DNA of 33,883 nucleotides from Elusimicrobiota bacterium (GTDB lineage Bacteria; Elusimicrobiota; Elusimicrobia; Elusimicrobiales; UBA9959), in assembly GCA_026388125.1 (NCBI GenBank), contig JAPLKJ010000258.1, positions 1 through 33,883 on the forward strand, written 5' to 3'. Position numbers and translations under genes: made by a program. Positions 1 through 26,463 of the stretch are shown piece after piece (the stretch's first letter is position 1; each line of letters starts with the position of its first letter). Under the pieces are notes generated by a model. The model had not been told where the DNA came from. It made no database searches and saw only the letters and a program-made list of their open reading frames with translations.

Positions 1-853
<853 letters not shown>

Positions 854-3839: not shown

Positions 3840-4058
3840 TTTTGACGCTTGACTTTGCTCTTGCAAATGAATAATATATAGATATTCCCTGTGTAACAAA
3901 ACAACAGCAAGTTTGTAACCTTTTCAGGGGCTTTTTGGATGAAAACACCGGAACAATCAAAGTTTTTTAGATGTTATCAACACAAAAAACAATTAAAAAA
4001 CAAGTGTTTTTCTGGTTTAGAAAAAAATTACTAACATATGTGGATAACTTGTGGATAA
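3840..4058. other. Candidate oriC region upstream of dnaA
   Basis: AT-rich island in a GC-rich window. Contains TTATCAACA at 3974-3982 and two consensus boxes TGTGGATAA (reverse complement of TTATCCACA) at 4039-4047 and 4050-4058, next to dnaA. Confidence 0.75.
3849..3877 (+). promoter_or_regulatory. Putative sigma70-type dnaA promoter
   Basis: TTGACT (3849-3854), 17-nt spacer, TAATAT (3872-3877), upstream of dnaA. Confidence 0.5.
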
Positions 4059-5406
4059 CTTAACCAACGTCAAAGAAATCTGGCTGACCGTGGTCAAAGA
4101 GCTGGAGGCCGAGATAGGCCCTGACGCCACCGCTTTATGGATACGGCCTATTAAGCCTATCTTTATAGAGAACGATACTCTTAAACTGGAAGTGCCCGAT
4201 TCCATAATATACGATACCGTCAAGAAGCGCTACGAGGAGAAAATAATCCAACTGCTGCGCGTTCTGACGGGAAAAGACCTTAAGATAGACTATTCCATGT
4301 CCCTGGCGTCGTCGGAGCCTGTGCCCCAGTCGAAAGCTACGCCGGCCGTAATAGCGCTGCCGGCCAATTATTATTCCTTTAACCCCAACTATACTTTCGA
4401 AAGCTTTATCGTCGGGGCGTCCAACCGCTTCGCCTACGCTTCGGCCGAAGGCGTGGCCAAGAATCCCGGGCAGAACCCTTTCTTCATCTACAGCGCGCCC
4501 GGCCTCGGTAAAACGCATCTGCTGCACGCCATAGCCCACGGGATCCTGAAAGCGAACAGTTCAGCCCGCATCCTTTACACCGCCAGCGAGAACTTCGTCA
4601 ACGAATATATCGACGCGGTGCGCGGCAAAGCGGACGGGGCGGAGCAGTTCCGCAGCAAATACCGCAAGCTGGACTGCCTGCTGCTGGACGATATCCAGTT
4701 CCTGGTGGACAAGGAGCGCAGCGAAGAGGAATTCTTCTACACCTTCAACGCCCTTTTCGAATCCAAGAAGCAGATAGTTATTACTTCCGACCGGCCGCCC
4801 AGGGAGCTGGCCATGGGGCAGCGCCTTATTTCCCGCTTCCTGCAGGGCGTGGTGGCGGACATCAAGCTGCCCGACTTCGAAACCCGCGTGGCCATACTGC
4901 GCCAGAAGCGCGACCAGCACAAGTACGAGATCCCGGACGACATCGTTACCTTCATAGCGGAGAACGTTAAAAAGAGCATCAGGGAGCTGGAAGGCTGCCT
5001 TATTACGGTGGGGAATTTCTGCACCAATATGCACCTGCCTCCATCTATAGACACCGTAAAGGATATAATAAAGGATCACATAAGCGATCCCGAACAGGAA
5101 GACCACAAGATCGAGATAGAGACAATAAAAACGGTGGTAGCCGATAAATACAACATCGAAATGAAGGACTTCAGCTCCAAAAAGCGGAGCGAGGCCGTGG
5201 CTTTCCCCAGACAGGTGGCCATGTACCTGGCCTGCGTAATGACGGAGTTCACTCTTAAGGATATAGGTGAAGCTTTCGGCAAGGACCACGCCACCGTGCT
5301 GTACGCCAAGAATAAAATAGGCCAACTGGTACAGACCGACCCCTATTTCAACGAGACGCTTAACCAGATGCTTTCTAAAATAAAGAATGTCAGTAACTCC
5401 GCTTAA
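4051..5406 (+). CDS. dnaA: Chromosomal replication initiator protein DnaA (GTG start)
   Basis: Full DnaA architecture: ALWIRPIKP, NPFFIYSAPGLGKTHLLHAIAH (Walker A), LLLDDIQFL (Walker B), C-terminal FGKDHATVLYAKNKI (DnaA box-binding signature). An in-frame TAA lies at 4045-4047. Confidence 0.98.
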   Translation: MDNLTNVKEIWLTVVKELEAEIGPDATALWIRPIKPIFIENDTLKLEVPDSIIYDTVKKRYEEKIIQLLRVLTGKDLKIDYSMSLASSEPVPQSKATPAVIALPANYYSFNPNYTFESFIVGASNRFAYASAEGVAKNPGQNPFFIYSAPGLGKTHLLHAIAHGILKANSSARILYTASENFVNEYIDAVRGKADGAEQFRSKYRKLDCLLLDDIQFLVDKERSEEEFFYTFNALFESKKQIVITSDRPPRELAMGQRLISRFLQGVVADIKLPDFETRVAILRQKRDQHKYEIPDDIVTFIAENVKKSIRELEGCLITVGNFCTNMHLPPSIDTVKDIIKDHISDPEQEDHKIEIETIKTVVADKYNIEMKDFSSKKRSEAVAFPRQVAMYLACVMTEFTLKDIGEAFGKDHATVLYAKNKIGQLVQTDPYFNETLNQMLSKIKNVSNSA

Positions 5407-5436
5407 GCTGTTAGCGGGCCATGTTTTTGTCAGTAT

Positions 5437-5466
5437 TGTCGATAATAAAAAGTAAGCTGTTGATAA
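5437..5466. promoter_or_regulatory. Degenerate DnaA boxes between dnaA and dnaN
   Basis: TGTCGATAA (5437-5445) and TGTTGATAA (5458-5466) each differ by one base from TGTGGATAA; local sequence is AT-rich. Confidence 0.45.
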
Positions 5467-5525
5467 CTTTTAAGAATGAGCATTAACACCACTGATACCG
5501 CAAACAACGTATCTTATAGAGGAGT

Positions 5526-6647
5526 ATGATGATGAAAATATCCAGTACTAGAGAGAACTTGATAAAAGGTTTGCAGACAATTCAGGCCGGCGTTTCCTCC
5601 AAGACCGGGACCATTCCGATATTGCAGAACTTCCTGATGGAAACCGAAGACAAGGGCGTGAAGGTGGTGTTCACGGACCTGGAGATGGCCATAAAGCATT
5701 ATATTCCGGTCAATATTAAGACCGCGGGCAGTATAACCGTGCCTATAAAGAAATTCATGGAGATAGTGCAGAACCTGGGGGAAGCCGCCGAGGTCAACAT
5801 TTCGGTGGACGAAAGCAACCGCATCTCCATCCTTAGCGGCAAAGCCCGCTTCAAGATGGGCGGCGCGCCCAAGAACGATTACCCGGTGATCCCCGACCTG
5901 GACGAGAACGATTCCTTCACCGTGCCGGCCAAGGTGCTGGCCGAAATGATAAGCAGCACTATTTTCTCCGCGTCCACCGAGGACGACAGGCACTTCCTCA
6001 ACGGCCTGCTGTGGAAGTATGAGAAAGATACTTTCTCGCTGGTGGCCACGGACGGCAGGCGGCTGGCTATAGCGTCCTCCAAAAAAGTGAAAGCCAAGAA
6101 GGATTTCAAGGTCATAGTCCCCTCCAAGGTACTGGGCGAACTGTCCCGGTTCATAAAGAGCGCGGGCTTTGACGATAAAGAAACAGTGACGGTCGGCCTT
6201 TCTTCCAACCAGATAGGCTTTAGGGTAGCCAAGACCGTGTTCATCTCGAGGCTCGTGGAGGGGAATTTCCCCGCTTATGAGCAGATAGTCCCTAAAACGC
6301 ACGAAATAGAGATAAAGATCAACGCGGAGGCCCTGCTGGGCGTCACAAAACGCGCGGCCATCTGCTCCAACGAGCGTTCAGGTTCGGTGAAGTATACTTT
6401 CAAGAACGACGTGCTGGTGGTGAACTCCTCTTCCCAGAGCATGGATTTCGAGGATGAGATACCCGTAGAATACAAAGGCAAGGATTTCCAGATAAGCTTC
6501 AACCCTAAATTCATCCTGGATATTCTGAAAGTTTCCGGTGAAAAAGAGCTTTCCGCCGAATTCACCACGCCTTCCACCCCGGCCATCGTCAAGGTGAAAG
6601 GGCGCGAAGACCTGATCTACATAATAATGCCGCTCAGGACGCAGTAA
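5526..6647 (+). CDS. dnaN: DNA polymerase III beta sliding clamp
   Basis: 373 aa; KISSTRENLIKGLQTIQ..., LLWKYEKDTFSLVATDGRRLAIA, C-terminal YIIMPLRTQ; SD GAGGAG upstream. Confidence 0.97.
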   Translation: MMMKISSTRENLIKGLQTIQAGVSSKTGTIPILQNFLMETEDKGVKVVFTDLEMAIKHYIPVNIKTAGSITVPIKKFMEIVQNLGEAAEVNISVDESNRISILSGKARFKMGGAPKNDYPVIPDLDENDSFTVPAKVLAEMISSTIFSASTEDDRHFLNGLLWKYEKDTFSLVATDGRRLAIASSKKVKAKKDFKVIVPSKVLGELSRFIKSAGFDDKETVTVGLSSNQIGFRVAKTVFISRLVEGNFPAYEQIVPKTHEIEIKINAEALLGVTKRAAICSNERSGSVKYTFKNDVLVVNSSSQSMDFEDEIPVEYKGKDFQISFNPKFILDILKVSGEKELSAEFTTPSTPAIVKVKGREDLIYIIMPLRTQ

Positions 6648-6657
6648 GGAGCTTTTG

Positions 6658-9467
<2,810 letters not shown>

Positions 9468-9485
9468 ACAACGGAGCAACCTAAA

Positions 9486-11996
9486 ATGGCAGACCATAAA
9501 GATATCGCGAAGCTTACGGACAACATGTTCATCAACATCGTTGACCGCGACATCAGCGAGGAGATGCGCTCCTCCTACATAGACTACTCGATGAGCGTGA
9601 TAGTGGGCCGGGCCCTGCCCGACGTGCGCGACGGCCTGAAGCCCGTGCACCGCCGCGTGCTCTACACCATGGACGACATGGGGCTGCAGCACAACAAGCC
9701 CTTCAAGAAATCCGCCCGCATCGTCGGCGACGTGATGGGTAAATATCACCCGCACGGCGACGCCTCCATCTACGATACCCTCGTGCGTATGGCCCAGCCT
9801 TTTTCCCTGCGCTACATGCTGGTGGACGGCCAGGGCAACTTCGGCTCGGTGGACGGCGACCCCGCGGCCGCCATGCGTTACACCGAGGCCCGCCTGTCCG
9901 GCATAGCCGGCGAACTGCTGGCGGACATCGAAAAAGAAACCGTAAAATTCGTGCCCAACTATGACGGCTCCATGACCGAGCCGTCAGTGCTGCCCGCCAA
10001 GCTCCCGAACCTCCTGATCAACGGCTCCTCCGGCATAGCCGTGGGTATGGCCACAAATATCCCGACGCATAACCTCGCCGAGGTCTGCGACGCGACCATA
10101 GCGGTGATGGAGAACCCGAACATCGAGACGAAAGAGCTGATGAAGCTCATCAAGGGCCCCGATTTCCCGACGGGCGGCATTATCCGCGGCCGCAAGGGCA
10201 TAAAGGATTACTTCGAGACCGGCCGCGGCTCCATCAGCACGCAGGCCCGCGCCGAGATAGAGGAGATGAAGGGCAACCGCGAGTGCATCGTGGTGACCGA
10301 GATCCCCTACCAGGTGAACAAGGCCACCCTGATAGAGACCATAGCGAACCTTGTTAAAGAAAAGAAGATCTCCGACATCTCCGATCTGCGCGACGAGTCG
10401 GACCGCCGCGGCATGCGCATCGTCATAGAGATCAAGCGCGACGGCAACGCCCAGGTGGTCCTGAACCAGCTCTACAAGCATACGCAGATGGAAGCCTCCT
10501 TCGGCGTCATAATGCTCGCCATCGTGGACGGCCGGCCCCGCGTGCTGCCCATCAAGGAAGTGATGCTGCAGTACGTGCGCCACCGCCGCCTGATGGTGGT
10601 GAACCGCACCAAGTACGACCTTAAAAAAGCCCTGGCCCGCGCCCACATCCTGGAAGGCTACCTGATAGCCCTGCAGAACATCGACGCGGTCGTGGAGATC
10701 ATAAAGAAATCCAAGGACTCGCTGGAAGCCAAGATCAAGCTGATGACCAAGTTCGCGCTGAGCGACATCCAGGCCCAGGCCATCCTCGACATGCGCCTGC
10801 ACCAGCTCACCCGCCTGGAAGTGGGCGCCATAGAGGAAGAGCACAAAGCCCTGATGAAGCTCATCGGCGAGCTGCGCGCCATCCTGGCCGACCCCAAGCG
10901 CGTGCTGCAGATCATCGTCGACGAGCTCAAGGAGATGAAGGCCAAGTACGGCGACAAGCGGGCTACCGAGATCACCGGCGAAGCGGCCGAGCTCGACATC
11001 GAGGACCTTATCCCCGAGGAAGACGTGATCATAACGATGTCCCACGGCGGCTACATCAAGCGCATCCCGGCCGACACCTACAAGGTGCAGGGCCGCGGCG
11101 GCAAGGGCATCATCGGCTCCGACGTGAAAGAAGAGGACTTCATCGAGAAGCTCTTCATCACCTCCAGCCACGCCACCATACTGATGTTCACCACGCGCGG
11201 CAAGGTGTACGCGCTGAAGGGCTACGAGATCCCCGAAGGCAACCGCACCTCGCGCGGCAAGGCCATAGTGAACCTGCTGCAGATCAAGGACGAGACGGTG
11301 ACCTCGGTGCTGGCCATCGAGTCCTTCGCCGAGGCCAAGGGCCGTGAGGCTTTCATAGTGATGTGCACCCGCAAGGGCAACATCAAGAAGACCCCCATCT
11401 CGGACTTCGCCAATATCCGGCGCTCCGGCATCAACGCCATCGGCCTGGAGGACGGCGACATCCTGACCAGCGTGGGCCATACCGACGGGAGCTATGAGAT
11501 AATCATCGGCACCAAAGAAGGCATGTCCATCCGCTTCAGCGAGTCCGACGTGCGCTCCATGGGCCGCAACGCCATGGGCGTGCGCGGCATCCGCCTGGAC
11601 AAGACCGACACGGTCATAGGCATGGAAGTGGCCGAGGCCAAGACCAAGAAAACGCTGCTGACGGTCTGCGAACTGGGCTTCGGCAAACGCACCGACCTGG
11701 ACGAATACCGCCACCAGAACCGCGGCGGTTCGGGCGTGATCACCATCAAGGCCACCGAGCGCAACGGCGCCGTGGTGGGCATCTACCTGGTGGAGAACAA
11801 GGACCACCTGATGGTGATGACCGAGAAGGGCAAGATCATACGCATGCCGTGCAAGACGCTGCGCGTGATCAGCCGCAACACCCAGGGCGTGCGCCTGGTG
11901 CGCATGGAGGAAGGCGACAAGATAGCCTCCGTGGAGCCCGTGGTGGACGACGAGATGGAGGGCGCGCCGCCCCTCCTGCCGGAAGAGAAGAAGTAA
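9486..11996 (+). CDS. gyrA: DNA gyrase subunit A
   Basis: [49 protein letters not shown], beta-pinwheel C-terminal domain with QGRGGKGI (GyrA-box). Confidence 0.98.
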
Positions 11997-15826: not shown

Positions 15827-16201
15827 CTAATGTCCGGTTTCCGGCAGGAACCCCGCTATAACGGAGAGCAGCTCTTTGCTGTCCACCGGTTTCTTCAATA
15901 CGCGGACATTTGGCATCCCTGAAACCCAGGGGATTATTTTTTCGGGCAGGCCCGTTACGAACACTACCGGGATTTTTTCCTTAATAAGACCGCTGACAAT
16001 GTCTAACACCTGTTTCCCGCCGCCTGACGGCAACGCAACGTCCAGGAGAAGAAGGTCAGCCGGGGCTTCCTTGAACAGGATAATGGCCGCCGTGGCTTCT
16101 GCCGCGGTCTCCACTATATATCCTGTTTTAGTGAGCAGCGCAGAGTAATACTCGAGAATATTGGTCTCGTCGTCCACCGCAAGTATTTTGAAAAGTTTCA
16201 T
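15827..16201 (-). CDS. Stand-alone response regulator receiver domain protein
   Basis: 124 aa; ILAVDDETNILEYY, LLLLDVALPSGGG, VVFVTG, LKKPVD: all receiver landmarks. SD GGGGGAG before ATG. Confidence 0.9.
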   Translation of the reverse strand: MKLFKILAVDDETNILEYYSALLTKTGYIVETAAEATAAIILFKEAPADLLLLDVALPSGGGKQVLDIVSGLIKEKIPVVFVTGLPEKIIPWVSGMPNVRVLKKPVDSKELLSVIAGFLPETGH

Positions 16202-20846: not shown

Positions 20847-23468
20847 ATGGAAATTGGAAAACTTTTGCGCTCTGCACAATGGCTCGTATTTTTAATAATA
20901 ATAATCTATATGATCATGGCGGGGCGGTCCGTGTTTACGGCGGTTGAGCTGCAGCTAACCGGCGGCCAGTCCGTAACGGAGCGCGTAAAACTTGCCAGGA
21001 TACTTGAATTAGACAACAGTGTGCGCCGGGCTGAAGAGTCTAGCCGGAGATGTGCGCTGGATCCTTCTGCCGCTAACAGGGCCGTCTACTGCGAAGACCT
21101 GCAGGCCGCGGATAAGGCGGCGGCCGCCGCCGATGCTGCCGGCGCTTTTCCCGCCGGGGCTGCCGGTCCGGACATTGACACGCTGCGCGCCTTCCTCGCG
21201 AACGATATCCGCCTCTGCGCGGCCTCTTCCCTGGCGCTCCCGGATAAAGAAAAGGCGCAGGAGGAGTTCGCCCGCTTCCATGATATGGCATCCGGGTTGA
21301 AGAAAAAACTTTTCGCTCTTGCCAGCGCCGAGCCGGAAGCAAATAATCTCCGTTCAAAGACCGAGAAAGAAAAAGTTATAAGACTTGTCCTCTCCGGCTC
21401 CGCCATCCCCGCTTTCATACTTCTTCTGCTGTTCTGGGTGGCGTATTGCCTGCGGCGCCTTAATAATGCCGTCGTCAGGTCGCGCGATGAGATGCTGGTG
21501 CTGAAGAACGGGCTGGCACAGTCCCCGCTGGGCGTAATGCTCACGGACACTCACGGCACGATCGAGTATATTAATCCGGCCTTTTCCGCCTTGTACGGCT
21601 ATTCTCCGGCCGAGGCGATAGGTAAGACTCCGAGGATCCTTAAATCCGGAGAGATGTCGCGGTCTTTTTACCAGAGTTTATGGAAAGAGCTGCTCGGCGG
21701 CCGCCCCTGGACCGGGGAGCTCCTCAACAGGACAAAGTCCAAAGAGCTGCTTTGGGTAAGGGCCTATATCTCGCCGGTAAGCAACAGCGAAGGCGAGGTT
21801 ACCCATTTCATAGCCCTGAACAAAGACGTAACCATTGAAAAACAGCTTATGGCCGAGGTTGTTGAAGCTAAGCAGGAAGCGGAACAGGCCAACCAGGCCA
21901 AGAGCGATTTCCTGGCCGCGATGAGCCACGAGATACGCACACCCCTTAACGCGATAGTCGGCATGTCGGAACTTATCGGCGAGGCGGCGCTGAACGATGA
22001 GCAGGCGCAGTACCTTTCGATCATGCGTAATGCCAGCGACACGCTCCTTTCCCTGATAAACGACATTCTGGATATCTCAAAGATAGAGGCCGGCAAGGTC
22101 GAGATAGAAACGGCCCCCTTCAATCTGGAGGAACTTCTGTCCAGGGTCGTGGAGATGATGTCGACGTCCGCGTTCAAGAAGGACGTGGAGATAAACTGTA
22201 AGATCGAGGCCGATGTGCCGGTATTCGTGGAAGGCGACGCCAACCGGCTCCGGCAGGTGCTGATGAACCTTATAGGCAACGCTGTGAAGTTCGTGGAAAA
22301 AGGCTGGATCTCCCTTAACGTGAAAATACAGCAGGCTGACGGCGACTCGGTGCTGCTGCTGTTCTCTTTGCGGGACACCGGCATCGGTATCCCGGCCGAC
22401 AAGCTTGATTCCGTTCTTGAGAAATTCACGCAGGCTGATTCTTCCACTGCGCGCAAATACGGCGGAACGGGGCTGGGCTTGCCGATCTCAAAGATGCTGA
22501 TCGAACTTATGGGCGGCGGCATCGGGCTGGGAAGCAAGGTGGGGGTCGGCACGGTTTTCTGCTTTACGGTCAACCTTGGCATCCAGAAGGACAGGCGGGA
22601 CGTTTACCTCCCGAAAGCGGACAGAAAAGAACTGAAGGGGCGGCGGTTCCTGGTGGTGGACGACAACCTGGTAAGCCGGAACATAATACGGGAGATGCTG
22701 CAAAGCTGGGGCGCCTCCTGCGAAGGCGCTGCCGACGGCGAGACGGGACTGGCCCGGATTTACGGTGAGCAGAGCAAAGGCGCGCCTTTCCATGGCGTCT
22801 TCGTGGATTCCAATATGCCGGGCATGGACGGCCGCGAGTTCTGCCGCCGCCTGACGGCGGATACGACCATAAACCCCAGGCCGGCCCTGGCGCTGGTTTG
22901 CTCCGACATCGTGCAGTTCAAAAAGGAAGAGCTCTGGACGATGGGGGCGAATACGCAGCTGATGAAACCGGTTAAAAAGCAGACCGTGCTTGACGGCGCG
23001 CTTGGGATGCTGGCCGCAGGAAAAACCGCTCTGTCCGCCGCGCCGCGGGCCGCGGCGGGTTATAAGAGGGAAGACCTGCCCGCGCTGGCCGCGCTGGTCG
23101 TGGACGACTCGGAGGACAACAGGATACTGATCAGTTCTTTCCTTAAAGGGTCGAAGGTCAGGCTGCAACTGGCCGTAGACGGCTTTGACGCGCTGAAAAA
23201 ATTCAAAGCGGGCGCCTATGATATAATCTTCATGGACATTCAGATGCCGGAAATGGACGGGTTCGAAACCACGGTTAAACTGCGCGAGCTGGAAGCCGCC
23301 GGAAAACGCGTCCGTACCCGTGTGGTGGCCCTTACGGCCATGGCCATGCGCGAGGACGTGGATAAAGCTTTCGAAGCCGGTTGCGATGATTACCTGACCA
23401 AGCCCATAAGAAAAGACGCTTTCTACGCATACCTTGTGGATTTCGCCGCCAACCGGGCTGAAGGTTGA
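20847..23468 (+). CDS. Membrane hybrid sensor histidine kinase: 2 TM / periplasmic loop - PAS - HisKA - HATPase - REC - REC
   Basis: MSHEIRTPLNAIVGMSEL (H box), NLIGNAVKFVEKGWISL (N box), DTGIGIP (G1), GGTGLGLPISKMLIELMGG (G2), PAS-like LAQSPLGVMLTDTHGTIEYINPAFSALYGYS, two receivers (LVVDDNLVSRN...VDSNMPGMDG and LVVDDSEDNRI...FMDIQMPEMDG). Confidence 0.96.
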   Translation: MEIGKLLRSAQWLVFLIIIIYMIMAGRSVFTAVELQLTGGQSVTERVKLARILELDNSVRRAEESSRRCALDPSAANRAVYCEDLQAADKAAAAADAAGAFPAGAAGPDIDTLRAFLANDIRLCAASSLALPDKEKAQEEFARFHDMASGLKKKLFALASAEPEANNLRSKTEKEKVIRLVLSGSAIPAFILLLLFWVAYCLRRLNNAVVRSRDEMLVLKNGLAQSPLGVMLTDTHGTIEYINPAFSALYGYSPAEAIGKTPRILKSGEMSRSFYQSLWKELLGGRPWTGELLNRTKSKELLWVRAYISPVSNSEGEVTHFIALNKDVTIEKQLMAEVVEAKQEAEQANQAKSDFLAAMSHEIRTPLNAIVGMSELIGEAALNDEQAQYLSIMRNASDTLLSLINDILDISKIEAGKVEIETAPFNLEELLSRVVEMMSTSAFKKDVEINCKIEADVPVFVEGDANRLRQVLMNLIGNAVKFVEKGWISLNVKIQQADGDSVLLLFSLRDTGIGIPADKLDSVLEKFTQADSSTARKYGGTGLGLPISKMLIELMGGGIGLGSKVGVGTVFCFTVNLGIQKDRRDVYLPKADRKELKGRRFLVVDDNLVSRNIIREMLQSWGASCEGAADGETGLARIYGEQSKGAPFHGVFVDSNMPGMDGREFCRRLTADTTINPRPALALVCSDIVQFKKEELWTMGANTQLMKPVKKQTVLDGALGMLAAGKTALSAAPRAAAGYKREDLPALAALVVDDSEDNRILISSFLKGSKVRLQLAVDGFDALKKFKAGAYDIIFMDIQMPEMDGFETTVKLRELEAAGKRVRTRVVALTAMAMREDVDKAFEAGCDDYLTKPIRKDAFYAYLVDFAANRAEG

Positions 23469-23564: not shown

Positions 23565-23864
23565 ATGGAGAAATACAGGGTTTCTGTAGACAAAGATCTG
23601 CAGGATATCGTGCCAGGGTATCTTGAGGCAAGGAACACCGAGCTCCCGAAGCTTTTCGCTTTCTGCTCGGCCGGCGATCTGGACTCCCTGGGGAAAGCCG
23701 GGCATACGCTTGCCGGTTCCGGCGGCGGTTATGGCTTTGACAGGCTCTCCGAATTGGGAAAACAGGTTGAACTGCTGTCCCGGGCGGGCGACGCCGCAGG
23801 GGTTGCCGCGCGCCTGGCGGAACTTAAGGACTATCTTGAGAATCTCGAGGTCGTGTATGAGTAG
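23565..23864 (+). CDS. Stand-alone histidine phosphotransfer (Hpt) domain protein
   Basis: 99 aa; AFCSAGDLDSLGKAGHTLAGSGGGYGFDRLSELGKQVE resembles the Hpt core (AHTLKGSxxxxGxxxL). Lies between the hybrid kinase and receiver protein and overlaps the next ORF by 8 bp. Confidence 0.85.
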   Translation: MEKYRVSVDKDLQDIVPGYLEARNTELPKLFAFCSAGDLDSLGKAGHTLAGSGGGYGFDRLSELGKQVELLSRAGDAAGVAARLAELKDYLENLEVVYE

Positions 23865-26463
23865 CAAGATACTTTGCGTGGATGACGACAAGGACATACT
23901 GGACCTCCTGAGTTTTACGCTTTCCAGGGCCGGGTTCGAGGTGGCTACGCTCTCAAAGCCGAAAGAGGCCGTCGCTTACGCCGCCAGGATAAAGCCCGAT
24001 CTGATACTGCTGGATGTTATGATGCCGGAACTGAGCGGCTACCACGTCTGCGTGGCGCTGCGCGAGCATCCTGAAACACAGGAAGTACCGGTGATCTTCC
24101 TTACCGCCGTAAACCACGAGCACGCCGACAAGATGAAAGCGCTTTCGCTTGGCGCCGTGGATTTCATTTCAAAACCTTTCAATAAGGAAACGCTGGTTGC
24201 GGCTATCAAAAAGCACCTGGCAAAGGAAAAGAACTGGTCTGCCGCGGCAGGCGTGAAAGCTCCCCTGCCCGTGCCCGCCGCTACGGGCACCATAACCTCT
24301 TTCCGGGATTTCCTGCTGGCGCCCGGCGGCCCGGGCCGCAAAAACCCCGAACTGGTAAAAAAGATGAACAATCCGGAGCTCTACAAGGTCCTGGACGAGC
24401 TCGGCCTCCCGGCGCCGGAAGGCGCCAGGCTTATAGCGGATTTTCTTAAGCTCCCCTGTCTCTCGATGATAAACCCCGACGACATTGAACTCGGGGTTCT
24501 GCCCTCCAAATTCGCCCAGGGGAACAACCTTGTCACGCTGCGGGACGATAACGGCGGGCTCCTGGTGGCGGTAGCCAGCCCTTTTGATTTTGAACTCATG
24601 GATACGCTGCGCCGGATGATACGGGAGCCGTACAAGCTGGTCATAGCCGAGCCCGGCGCTATCTCGAACCTCTACGCCATTTCACCGCAGGAGTCCGGAG
24701 AGCAGGGGCCCGGGGGCGGCGAAGTTTCCGAAGGGCTTACAATAGAGGTCTCCAGCGCGTCCCAGTGGGGAAAACGGCGCGACCTAGGCGATGAGATCGA
24801 CGGCAGCCCGGTAAAATACATAACGTCGAGGATAATAGAGGCGGCTATTCACGAACGCGCGAGCGACGTCCACCTGGAGCCGAAGGACCTTTTTACTGCC
24901 ATACGGTTCAGGGTGGACGGCGACCTGCGCGAATTTACCAAGCTGAAGAAAAACACCGCCATAATGGTCCTGACCCGCCTGAAAGCCATGGCGGGAATGG
25001 ACATAGCCGAGCGCCGCCGGCCGCAGGACGGGGCCTTCGTAGTGAAGCTCCGGGACCGGAAATTCACGCTCCGCATGGCCACCACCTCGACCAATTACGG
25101 CGAAAGCCTGGTAATGCGCCTGGTGGAGCCGCAGGCGAAGCCGAAAACGCTTTCCGAACTCGGCATGAACACGGAGCAGGCCGAGACCATGCTGCTTCTT
25201 TCCAGCAAAACCCAGGGCATGATCATAATTGCCGGACCCACCGGTTCAGGAAAGACCACTACCATTTACAGCTTCCTTTCGAATATAGACTGCCAGCGCC
25301 GCAGCCTGATCTCGGTGGAGGATCCTATCGAGTTCCGCATCACCCAGGCCAACCAGCAGCAGGTGAACGAAAGGGCGGGTGTAACTTTTGAGGCTCTCCT
25401 GAAATCCTCGGTGCGGCAGGACCCGGACATCCTGTTTTTAGGCGAAGTGCGCGACAAGCCATCGGCCCAGATAGCGCTGGACTTTTCCAGCACCGGGCAC
25501 CTGACAGTAACCACCATGCACACCTCCAACGCGACCACGGCCGTGTTCCGGATGGAGCGCCTGGGCGTAAGCCGGGCCCAGATAGCCGACACGGTGCTGG
25601 CCGTTATCTCGCAGCGCCTGATAAAGCGGCTTTGCCCGAAGTGCAAGGCTATGAAGCCCCCGGAACCGGGCATGCTTGAAACTTTTTCCCGGTTCGGCCA
25701 TCCCGCTCCCGGGCAGACGGGGCACCCCGTCGGCTGCCCGGTCTGCAGGAATACCGGCTACGCGGGACGGGAGGCGGTCTACGAGATAATATTAATGACC
25801 CCCGACGTATCCGAAATGATACGCTCCGGCGCCTCGATCTCCCATATACGCGAAACCCTGAGGAGCGGCGGCGTGACGCTTATGACAACTTCCGCGCTCG
25901 CCAAGGTGGCCGAAGGCGCGGTCTCTTACCAGGACGCCTACCAGAAAGTCCTGGCCGAAGACCTGGGGGCCGTTCCCCTCGCCGTGGCTGACGACGTTCT
26001 CGATCCGCTTCCGGAGGGCCGGGCGCCGGAACCGGTATACGTGGGCTCAAAAAAAGACGTCGCGGCGCTCAAAGCGGCTTCCGCCTCCGGCGCACTGGGA
26101 AAAAAGATCCTGGTCGTGGACGACGACCCCGACATACTGCTGCTGGCCCGGAAAGTAATAGCGGCCGAAGGCTACGCCGTTACTACCGCTAAGGACGGGA
26201 TAGAGGCCATAATGCTCCTGAGTTCCAGGAAATTCGACCTGGTGCTCTCGGACATCGATATGCCCGAGCTGGACGGTCTGCGCCTCCTGGAACTATTGCA
26301 CCAGAAGAACATAAAAGCCGATGTCGCCTTTTTTACCGCCTGCGGGTCTGAAGACCTGGAAGAACGGTGCCTTGCCCTCGGCGCGCTTGATTATATACGC
26401 AAACCGGTCAGGAAAGAGATCCTGCTGCTGCGTCTTAAAAACATCTTCGCTCAAAAAAAATGA
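23857..26463 (+). CDS. Receiver - PilB/GspE-type secretion ATPase - receiver fusion
   Basis: ATG 23857: MSSKILCVDDDKDILDLL...LILLDVMMPELSG...TAVN...ISKPF (REC1); MshEN/T2SSE_N-like region; SDVHLEP, IIIAGPTGSGKTTTIYSFL (Walker A), VEDPIEF, ILFLGEVRD (Walker B), TGHLTVTTMHTSNA (His box), CPKC/CPVC; then ILVVDDDPDILLLA...LVLSDIDMPELDG...FFTAC...YIRKPV (REC2). Confidence 0.95.
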   Translation: MSSKILCVDDDKDILDLLSFTLSRAGFEVATLSKPKEAVAYAARIKPDLILLDVMMPELSGYHVCVALREHPETQEVPVIFLTAVNHEHADKMKALSLGAVDFISKPFNKETLVAAIKKHLAKEKNWSAAAGVKAPLPVPAATGTITSFRDFLLAPGGPGRKNPELVKKMNNPELYKVLDELGLPAPEGARLIADFLKLPCLSMINPDDIELGVLPSKFAQGNNLVTLRDDNGGLLVAVASPFDFELMDTLRRMIREPYKLVIAEPGAISNLYAISPQESGEQGPGGGEVSEGLTIEVSSASQWGKRRDLGDEIDGSPVKYITSRIIEAAIHERASDVHLEPKDLFTAIRFRVDGDLREFTKLKKNTAIMVLTRLKAMAGMDIAERRRPQDGAFVVKLRDRKFTLRMATTSTNYGESLVMRLVEPQAKPKTLSELGMNTEQAETMLLLSSKTQGMIIIAGPTGSGKTTTIYSFLSNIDCQRRSLISVEDPIEFRITQANQQQVNERAGVTFEALLKSSVRQDPDILFLGEVRDKPSAQIALDFSSTGHLTVTTMHTSNATTAVFRMERLGVSRAQIADTVLAVISQRLIKRLCPKCKAMKPPEPGMLETFSRFGHPAPGQTGHPVGCPVCRNTGYAGREAVYEIILMTPDVSEMIRSGASISHIRETLRSGGVTLMTTSALAKVAEGAVSYQDAYQKVLAEDLGAVPLAVADDVLDPLPEGRAPEPVYVGSKKDVAALKAASASGALGKKILVVDDDPDILLLARKVIAAEGYAVTTAKDGIEAIMLLSSRKFDLVLSDIDMPELDGLRLLELLHQKNIKADVAFFTACGSEDLEERCLALGALDYIRKPVRKEILLLRLKNIFAQKK

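Follow-up and report, generated by a model that had tools for sequence, protein, structure and literature searches.

Known routes by which the motors of pili and secretion systems are switched involve c-di-GMP, separate partner proteins or transcription. Multistep phosphorelays run from a hybrid kinase through an HPt protein to a response regulator, as in RcsC-RcsD-RcsB and CckA-ChpT-CtrA. In the NtrC-type REC-AAA+ activators a receiver controls the assembly or activity of an ATP-driven ring, and the output is sigma-54 transcription. A receiver that acts directly on a pilus motor has been described in Xanthomonas oryzae, where EmvR, a free single-domain receiver protein thought to be fed by the kinase ColS, binds PilB and lowers its ATPase Vmax by phospho-Asp-dependent, non-competitive inhibition (PMC11973254). 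An association of MshEN with a two-component receiver was recorded in the domain survey of Wang et al. 2016, in whose main-text passages we found no REC-MshEN-T2SSE-REC architecture, HPt linkage or phosphorelay (PMC5013675). The passages on PilB regulators in a 2024 review name c-di-GMP, PilZ, FimX, the Pil-Chp system, PdeK-PdeR and inhibitory peptides, and mention no covalent receiver-PilB fusion and no HPt-driven motor (PMC11656802). We found no paper in the open-access literature on a covalent receiver-PilB fusion, nor on an HPt-fed receiver-motor-receiver protein. The MshEN-REC association and the EmvR precedent in trans were known before; for an HPt-fed REC-motor-REC protein we found no description in that literature.

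A candidate for such a protein is encoded in the window, the whole 33,883-nucleotide stretch of Elusimicrobiota DNA that was analysed. Positions 23857-26463(+) encode 868 aa without interruption, in which Pfam identifies, each above its cut-off, a receiver, a degenerate MshEN domain, a complete PilB/GspE-type ATPase and a second receiver. The ATG at 23857 is the start that agrees with the orthologues and lies just within the 3' end of an HPt gene; an alternative start of the same ORF is possible at TTG 23623. The T2SSE ATPase domain (aa 315-694; 24799..25938, + strand) scores 365.6 bits against a cut-off of 24.9 and covers profile positions 4-368 of 370. Its Walker A (460-467), Asp box (E488/D489), Walker B/GExRD (529-533) and His box (H555) are all intact, as expected of the T2SSE superfamily, and the cysteines of the tetracysteine (C593/C596/C627/C630) are invariant. 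This zinc motif is typical of assembly ATPases and not of retraction ATPases. The nearest named relatives, at 65-70% full-length identity, are MAGs of Elusimicrobia. Its scores against the NCBIfam models for PilB (TIGR02538, 372.8 bits vs 675.65) and GspE (TIGR02533, 384 bits vs 630.25) are far below the equivalog cut-offs, which suggests that it is a relative of the PilB/GspE class but neither PilB nor GspE. Pfam detected no DNA-binding domain in the 868-aa protein, and transcription was therefore rejected as its output.

Response_reg was found twice in the ATPase (E 2e-56), over an N-terminal stretch at 5-118 and as a C-terminal copy at about 750-860. The N-terminal receiver (aa 5-118; 23869..24210, + strand) has its phospho-Asp at D53 (codon 24013..24015, + strand), and the C-terminal receiver (aa 750-868; 26104..26460, + strand), joined to the ATPase by a linker of about 55 aa, has its phospho-Asp at D799 (codon 26251..26253, + strand). 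Both have the acidic pair, phospho-Asp, Thr (T83, T827) and Lys (K106, K849) that mark response regulators, and each takes a (beta-alpha)5 fold in the model, at a pLDDT that is mostly about 70-90. The full-length AlphaFold model, built from a 4-row alignment, has a mean pLDDT of 45.8; only the receivers are confident, and docking is not readable from it. An earlier note on this DNA had described a single ORF carrying these receiver and ATPase motifs. Translation, Pfam and the residue check bear this out, with two Response_reg matches, MshEN and T2SSE all significant and both phospho-Asp residues present.

Upstream of the ATPase gene are genes for a hybrid histidine kinase of 873 aa (20847..23468, + strand) and a stand-alone HPt protein of 99 aa (23565..23864, + strand). 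The kinase consists of PAS, HisKA, HATPase_c and two receivers, in that order (Pfam PAS_9; HisKA, 79.2 bits; HATPase_c, 87 bits; Response_reg in two stretches), and by eye its N-terminus has two hydrophobic segments around a presumed periplasmic region. The 99-aa protein matches Pfam Hpt with 36 bits (cut-off 24.6) and was modelled by AF2 as a four-helix bundle with a pLDDT of 91. The best PDB matches of this model are HPt proteins (probability 1.00, TM 0.70-0.75), with E-values of only about 0.04, as expected for a domain that is small and helical. Its phospho-His, H47 (codon 23703..23705, + strand), is invariant in all HPts of the family. The HPt stop codon lies within the ATPase gene, and the overlap with the ATPase start is 8 nt. 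Every step of a His-Asp-His-Asp relay is encoded together here, in hybrid kinase, HPt and terminal receivers, and the active-site His is present in the linked HPt. The kinase, HPt and ATPase constitute a complete predicted phosphorelay with the ATPase as its terminal component.

This predicted relay shares with known multistep phosphorelays a HisKA/HATPase kinase with receivers, a separate HPt and a terminal receiver, but its terminal output would be a secretion/pilus-type ring ATPase and not a DNA-binding protein. Both the ATPase family and the output differ from those of the NtrC type. The likeness to EmvR-PilB lies in a receiver that would act directly on a pilus extension ATPase and need its phospho-Asp; EmvR is a separate protein, whereas here there are two covalent receivers and an HPt relay. 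With the PilB/GspE/MshE ATPases (PF00437; MshEN, PF05157) the protein shares an N2D-RecA-like ATPase with Walker A/B, Asp and His boxes and tetracysteine, and an MshEN-like region in front. It differs from them in its receivers at both ends, its degenerate MshEN, its own long-stemmed clade and its position outside any pil or gsp operon. The neighbours of the cassette are the kinase, the HPt, panD/coaX and a TPR protein, and no pilin, platform or secretin genes adjoin it in the window. Further away, a T2SSE protein without MshEN or receivers (2-853(-)), cut by the contig end, is probably PilT-like, and a single-domain receiver gene (15827-16201(-), 53.9 bits) has a counterpart near the cassette of a congener (L049). 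We identified dnaA, dnaN, gyrB and gyrA by eye at 4051-11996, suggesting that the cassette is near the likely replication origin.

We searched 296 Elusimicrobiota genomes and annotated the regions of the loci found, and we sampled a second phylum through 296 genomes from the phylum of a Brocadiaceae record. REC-MshEN-T2SSE-REC proteins occur in 15/296 Elusimicrobiota genomes from five families. A single genome of the second phylum (G341) has a full-length member, whose gene belongs to an HK-HPt-ATPase operon; the genes there overlap by 4 and 8 nt, and Pfam confirms the Hpt domain. At E <= 1e-128, and without a positive control, a search of 291 Verrucomicrobiota-side genomes chosen around a Lentisphaeria record gave zero matches. 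In-frame stops are present in two clade members, in the C-terminal receiver of L052 (G046) and in the ATPase of L054 (G054); G054 also has an intact copy (L055).

An HPt adjoins the ATPase or is fused to it at 15/16 REC-T2SSE-REC loci, a plain count, preferred to a Fisher test (15/16 vs 0/38) that missed the HPt fused to L111 and disregards shared ancestry. At the exception (L050, genome G234) the upstream contig end is short and the only HPt of the genome is on another contig, where it adjoins a PAS-domain ORF running off the contig end; it clearly belongs to the same HPt family. In most lineages the HPt gene either abuts the ATPase gene or shares 8 or 4 nt with it, and in two genomes (L060, L063) the HPt is within the ATPase chain itself, as REC-HPt-REC-MshEN-T2SSE-REC (Pfam). 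At L059 and L061 the HPt gene has an additional receiver. HPts are scarce, as five genomes (G082, G234, G124, G046, G277) each have this HPt alone by Pfam counts. The HPt model used for the locus scan was trained on the same loci, so that distant HPts could escape it, a weakness that the Pfam counts do not share. A hybrid kinase adjoins the ATPase locus in the window and in L048, L049, L051, L052, L062 and L110. Stand-alone HPts were found near 0/15 plain T2SSE rows and 0/20 ATPase-REC rows, and three ATPase-REC loci have an HPt domain within the neighbouring hybrid kinase. Prepilin-like neighbours, in the clade and its sister, are confined to L050 and L064. A MinD/ParA-like P-loop gene, recognised by its N-terminal motif, is directly upstream of the HPt at L053:10564-11355(-) and L121:6123-6953(+).

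All REC-T2SSE-REC proteins, the second-phylum member among them, group together in a maximum-likelihood tree of 58 ATPase domains (support 100/99 with L064 and 99/98 for the group excluding it), and the stem of this group measures 1.3 changes per column. The ATPase, arginine and zinc-motif positions are kept in the whole clade. Other receiver-ATPase fusions fall outside it, and the REC-ATPase and ATPase-REC proteins of the second phylum are placed elsewhere in the tree. This suggests that fusion of receivers to such ATPases probably happened several times. The earlier note had considered receivers fused at both ends atypical of canonical PilB/GspE ATPases. The fusion is not unique: uniqueness was rejected in view of the recurrent family and the further fusions in two phyla.

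Several of these relatives have arrangements of their own. A separate Elusimicrobiota ATPase-REC family of about 725 aa (L066, L069, L070, L071, L073, L075) has, at each of these loci, a histidine kinase gene that begins 2-23 nt downstream of the ATPase-REC gene; the pair is predicted to be a second, simpler two-component motor. L111:5015-8083(-) encodes a REC-MshEN-T2SSE protein with a C-terminal HPt domain (Pfam Hpt, 32.6 bits) and adjoins a single-domain receiver gene. At L112:3448-6644(+), downstream of a hybrid kinase, a REC-GGDEF gene overlaps the start of a REC-MshEN-T2SSE gene, and joint input from a phosphorelay and c-di-GMP is possible. Paralogues of about 430 aa with the order REC-MshEN-N2D (L050:6217-7506(-), L081:7506-8807(+), L082:7379-8707(-)) have an intact receiver but lack the ATPase core and the C-terminal receiver, and are possible ring modulators.

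Comparison with the syntenic congener locus L049 (G271) revealed an abrupt change in similarity. At the DNA level the region from the kinase through the HPt to the N-terminal receiver is 92-99% identical and the region after the ATPase gene 88-97%, against 51-79% over window positions 24101-26350, which span MshEN, the ATPase and most of the C-terminal receiver. The congener ATPase groups with another genus in the tree. This reflects either recombination that swapped the motor body from a point just past the N-terminal receiver or a chimera in one of the two MAGs. As the motor body differs strongly while the kinase, HPt and N-terminal receiver are nearly identical, the C-terminal receiver may be exchangeable without its kinase, a point to be set against the relay reading proposed here.

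Conservation differs between the two receivers. The acidic pair, phospho-Asp (D799 in the window) and Thr of the C-terminal receiver are kept in every clade homologue with an uninterrupted C-terminal receiver, and its Lys is kept wherever the sequence extends to that position. In one lineage (L053 and L056) the N-terminal receiver has lost its phospho-Asp, with HPt and C-terminal receiver both retained. L058, which the tree places within the clade, has neither the C-terminal receiver nor the adjoining HPt, and all six HPts of its genome are within ORFs of at least 442 aa. Taken together, this evolutionary pattern favours the C-terminal receiver as the principal HPt target. The earlier note had proposed phosphorylation at one or both ends; the ends now appear not to be equivalent, the C-terminal receiver being the conserved one.

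We consider it likely that a dedicated multistep phosphorelay has its output end at this locus and controls a PilB/GspE-class assembly ATPase after translation. The intact catalytic domains of the chain, their genetic linkage and fusion, and the intact motifs of the ATPase can be read directly from the genes. The membrane-anchored hybrid kinase would sense a signal and autophosphorylate on His, and the phosphoryl group would then move to the kinase's own receiver or receivers. HPt His47 would take it on to the ATPase, mainly to D799 and perhaps also to D53, and receiver phosphorylation would act as an allosteric switch of the ATPase ring, affecting its activity, ring assembly or docking. Assembly of a filament or secretion, by a machine presumably of the type IV pilus / type II secretion class, would thus be controlled post-translationally and not through transcription. 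The switch may work in either direction; activation of the motor is not to be assumed, because the EmvR precedent is inhibitory. The adjoining HPt and hybrid kinase, conserved or fused across lineages, lend weight to the proposal of the earlier note that the motor may be gated by phosphorylation, which to that extent is partly supported.

Control by c-di-GMP through MshEN, with receivers that only fine-tune the motor or drain phosphate from the relay, has to be weighed against this relay. The MshEN domain (aa 205-272; 24469..24672, + strand) is recognisable, with 49.6 bits against a cut-off of 23.1, the genome encodes four GGDEF matches, and a REC-GGDEF gene adjoins the REC-MshEN-T2SSE relative in L112. 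The match, however, covers profile positions 13-79 of 90, the first 12 being absent, and the c-di-GMP motif (two 24-residue RLGxx... motifs, PMC5013675), strict or relaxed, is found in no REC-T2SSE-REC protein, a weak control given that the relaxed form occurs in only 2/15 canonical ATPase rows. Loss of c-di-GMP control by the ATPase is plausible, and we regard its persistence as improbable. The MshEN-like region is indeed shortened and degenerate, as the earlier note had judged by eye, but its suggestion that phosphorylation may replace c-di-GMP control goes beyond the evidence: GGDEF domains are encoded in the genome, and the relaxed motif is likewise missing from most of the canonical PilB-type relatives examined. 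The fragmented source assembly (311 contigs) might suggest that a frameshift or faulty assembly created the fusion, which the earlier note had named as grounds for dismissing it; the same uninterrupted fusion in many independent genomes of two phyla rules this out in practice and makes its probability negligible.

A relay that steers where the motor goes, by polar docking or partner binding, and so positions pilus assembly without changing catalysis, is a somewhat unlikely alternative. The receivers of FimX and FrzS act on the localisation of pilus machinery in Pseudomonas and Myxococcus, even without a phospho-Asp (PMC11656802, PMC1974792), the N-terminal receiver of L053 and L056 has been kept despite being a pseudo-receiver, and the MinD/ParA-like gene adjoins the HPt in L053 and L121. 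Fusion to the ATPase itself, together with an intact, conserved C-terminal receiver and a dedicated HPt, implies phospho-switching, with which an output in localisation is still compatible. The protein could also serve as a decoy or a modulator, an ATPase that enters canonical PilB/GspE rings or blocks them, or a stand-alone signalling ATPase, which we think unlikely. The genome has at least nine other T2SSE-type matches and three loci with T2SSF platform genes elsewhere (contigs C18, C162 and C301), of which the one on C162 adjoins a canonical motor; the position of the cassette outside a pil or gsp operon, the paralogues without an ATPase core in relatives and the very long stem of the clade fit such a role as well. 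Against it, the clade-wide conservation of the ATPase, arginine and zinc-motif positions is what is expected of a working ring motor.

More tentatively, the ATPase may represent a recurrent class of phosphorelay-controlled motor, with two receivers per subunit (12 per presumed hexamer) and two phospho-inputs from a dedicated kinase-HPt relay, in which signalling ends in mechanical work and not in transcription, and separate receiver-motor fusions would have arisen several times across Elusimicrobiota and the second phylum. As the motor has its own receivers, with kinase and shuttle next door, post-translational gating is testable with three soluble or truncated proteins. The locus would open a way into how Elusimicrobiota, a poorly known phylum with scarce genetics, sense and behave on surfaces, and suggests that an environmental signal may be passed directly to a molecular motor and not to a gene.
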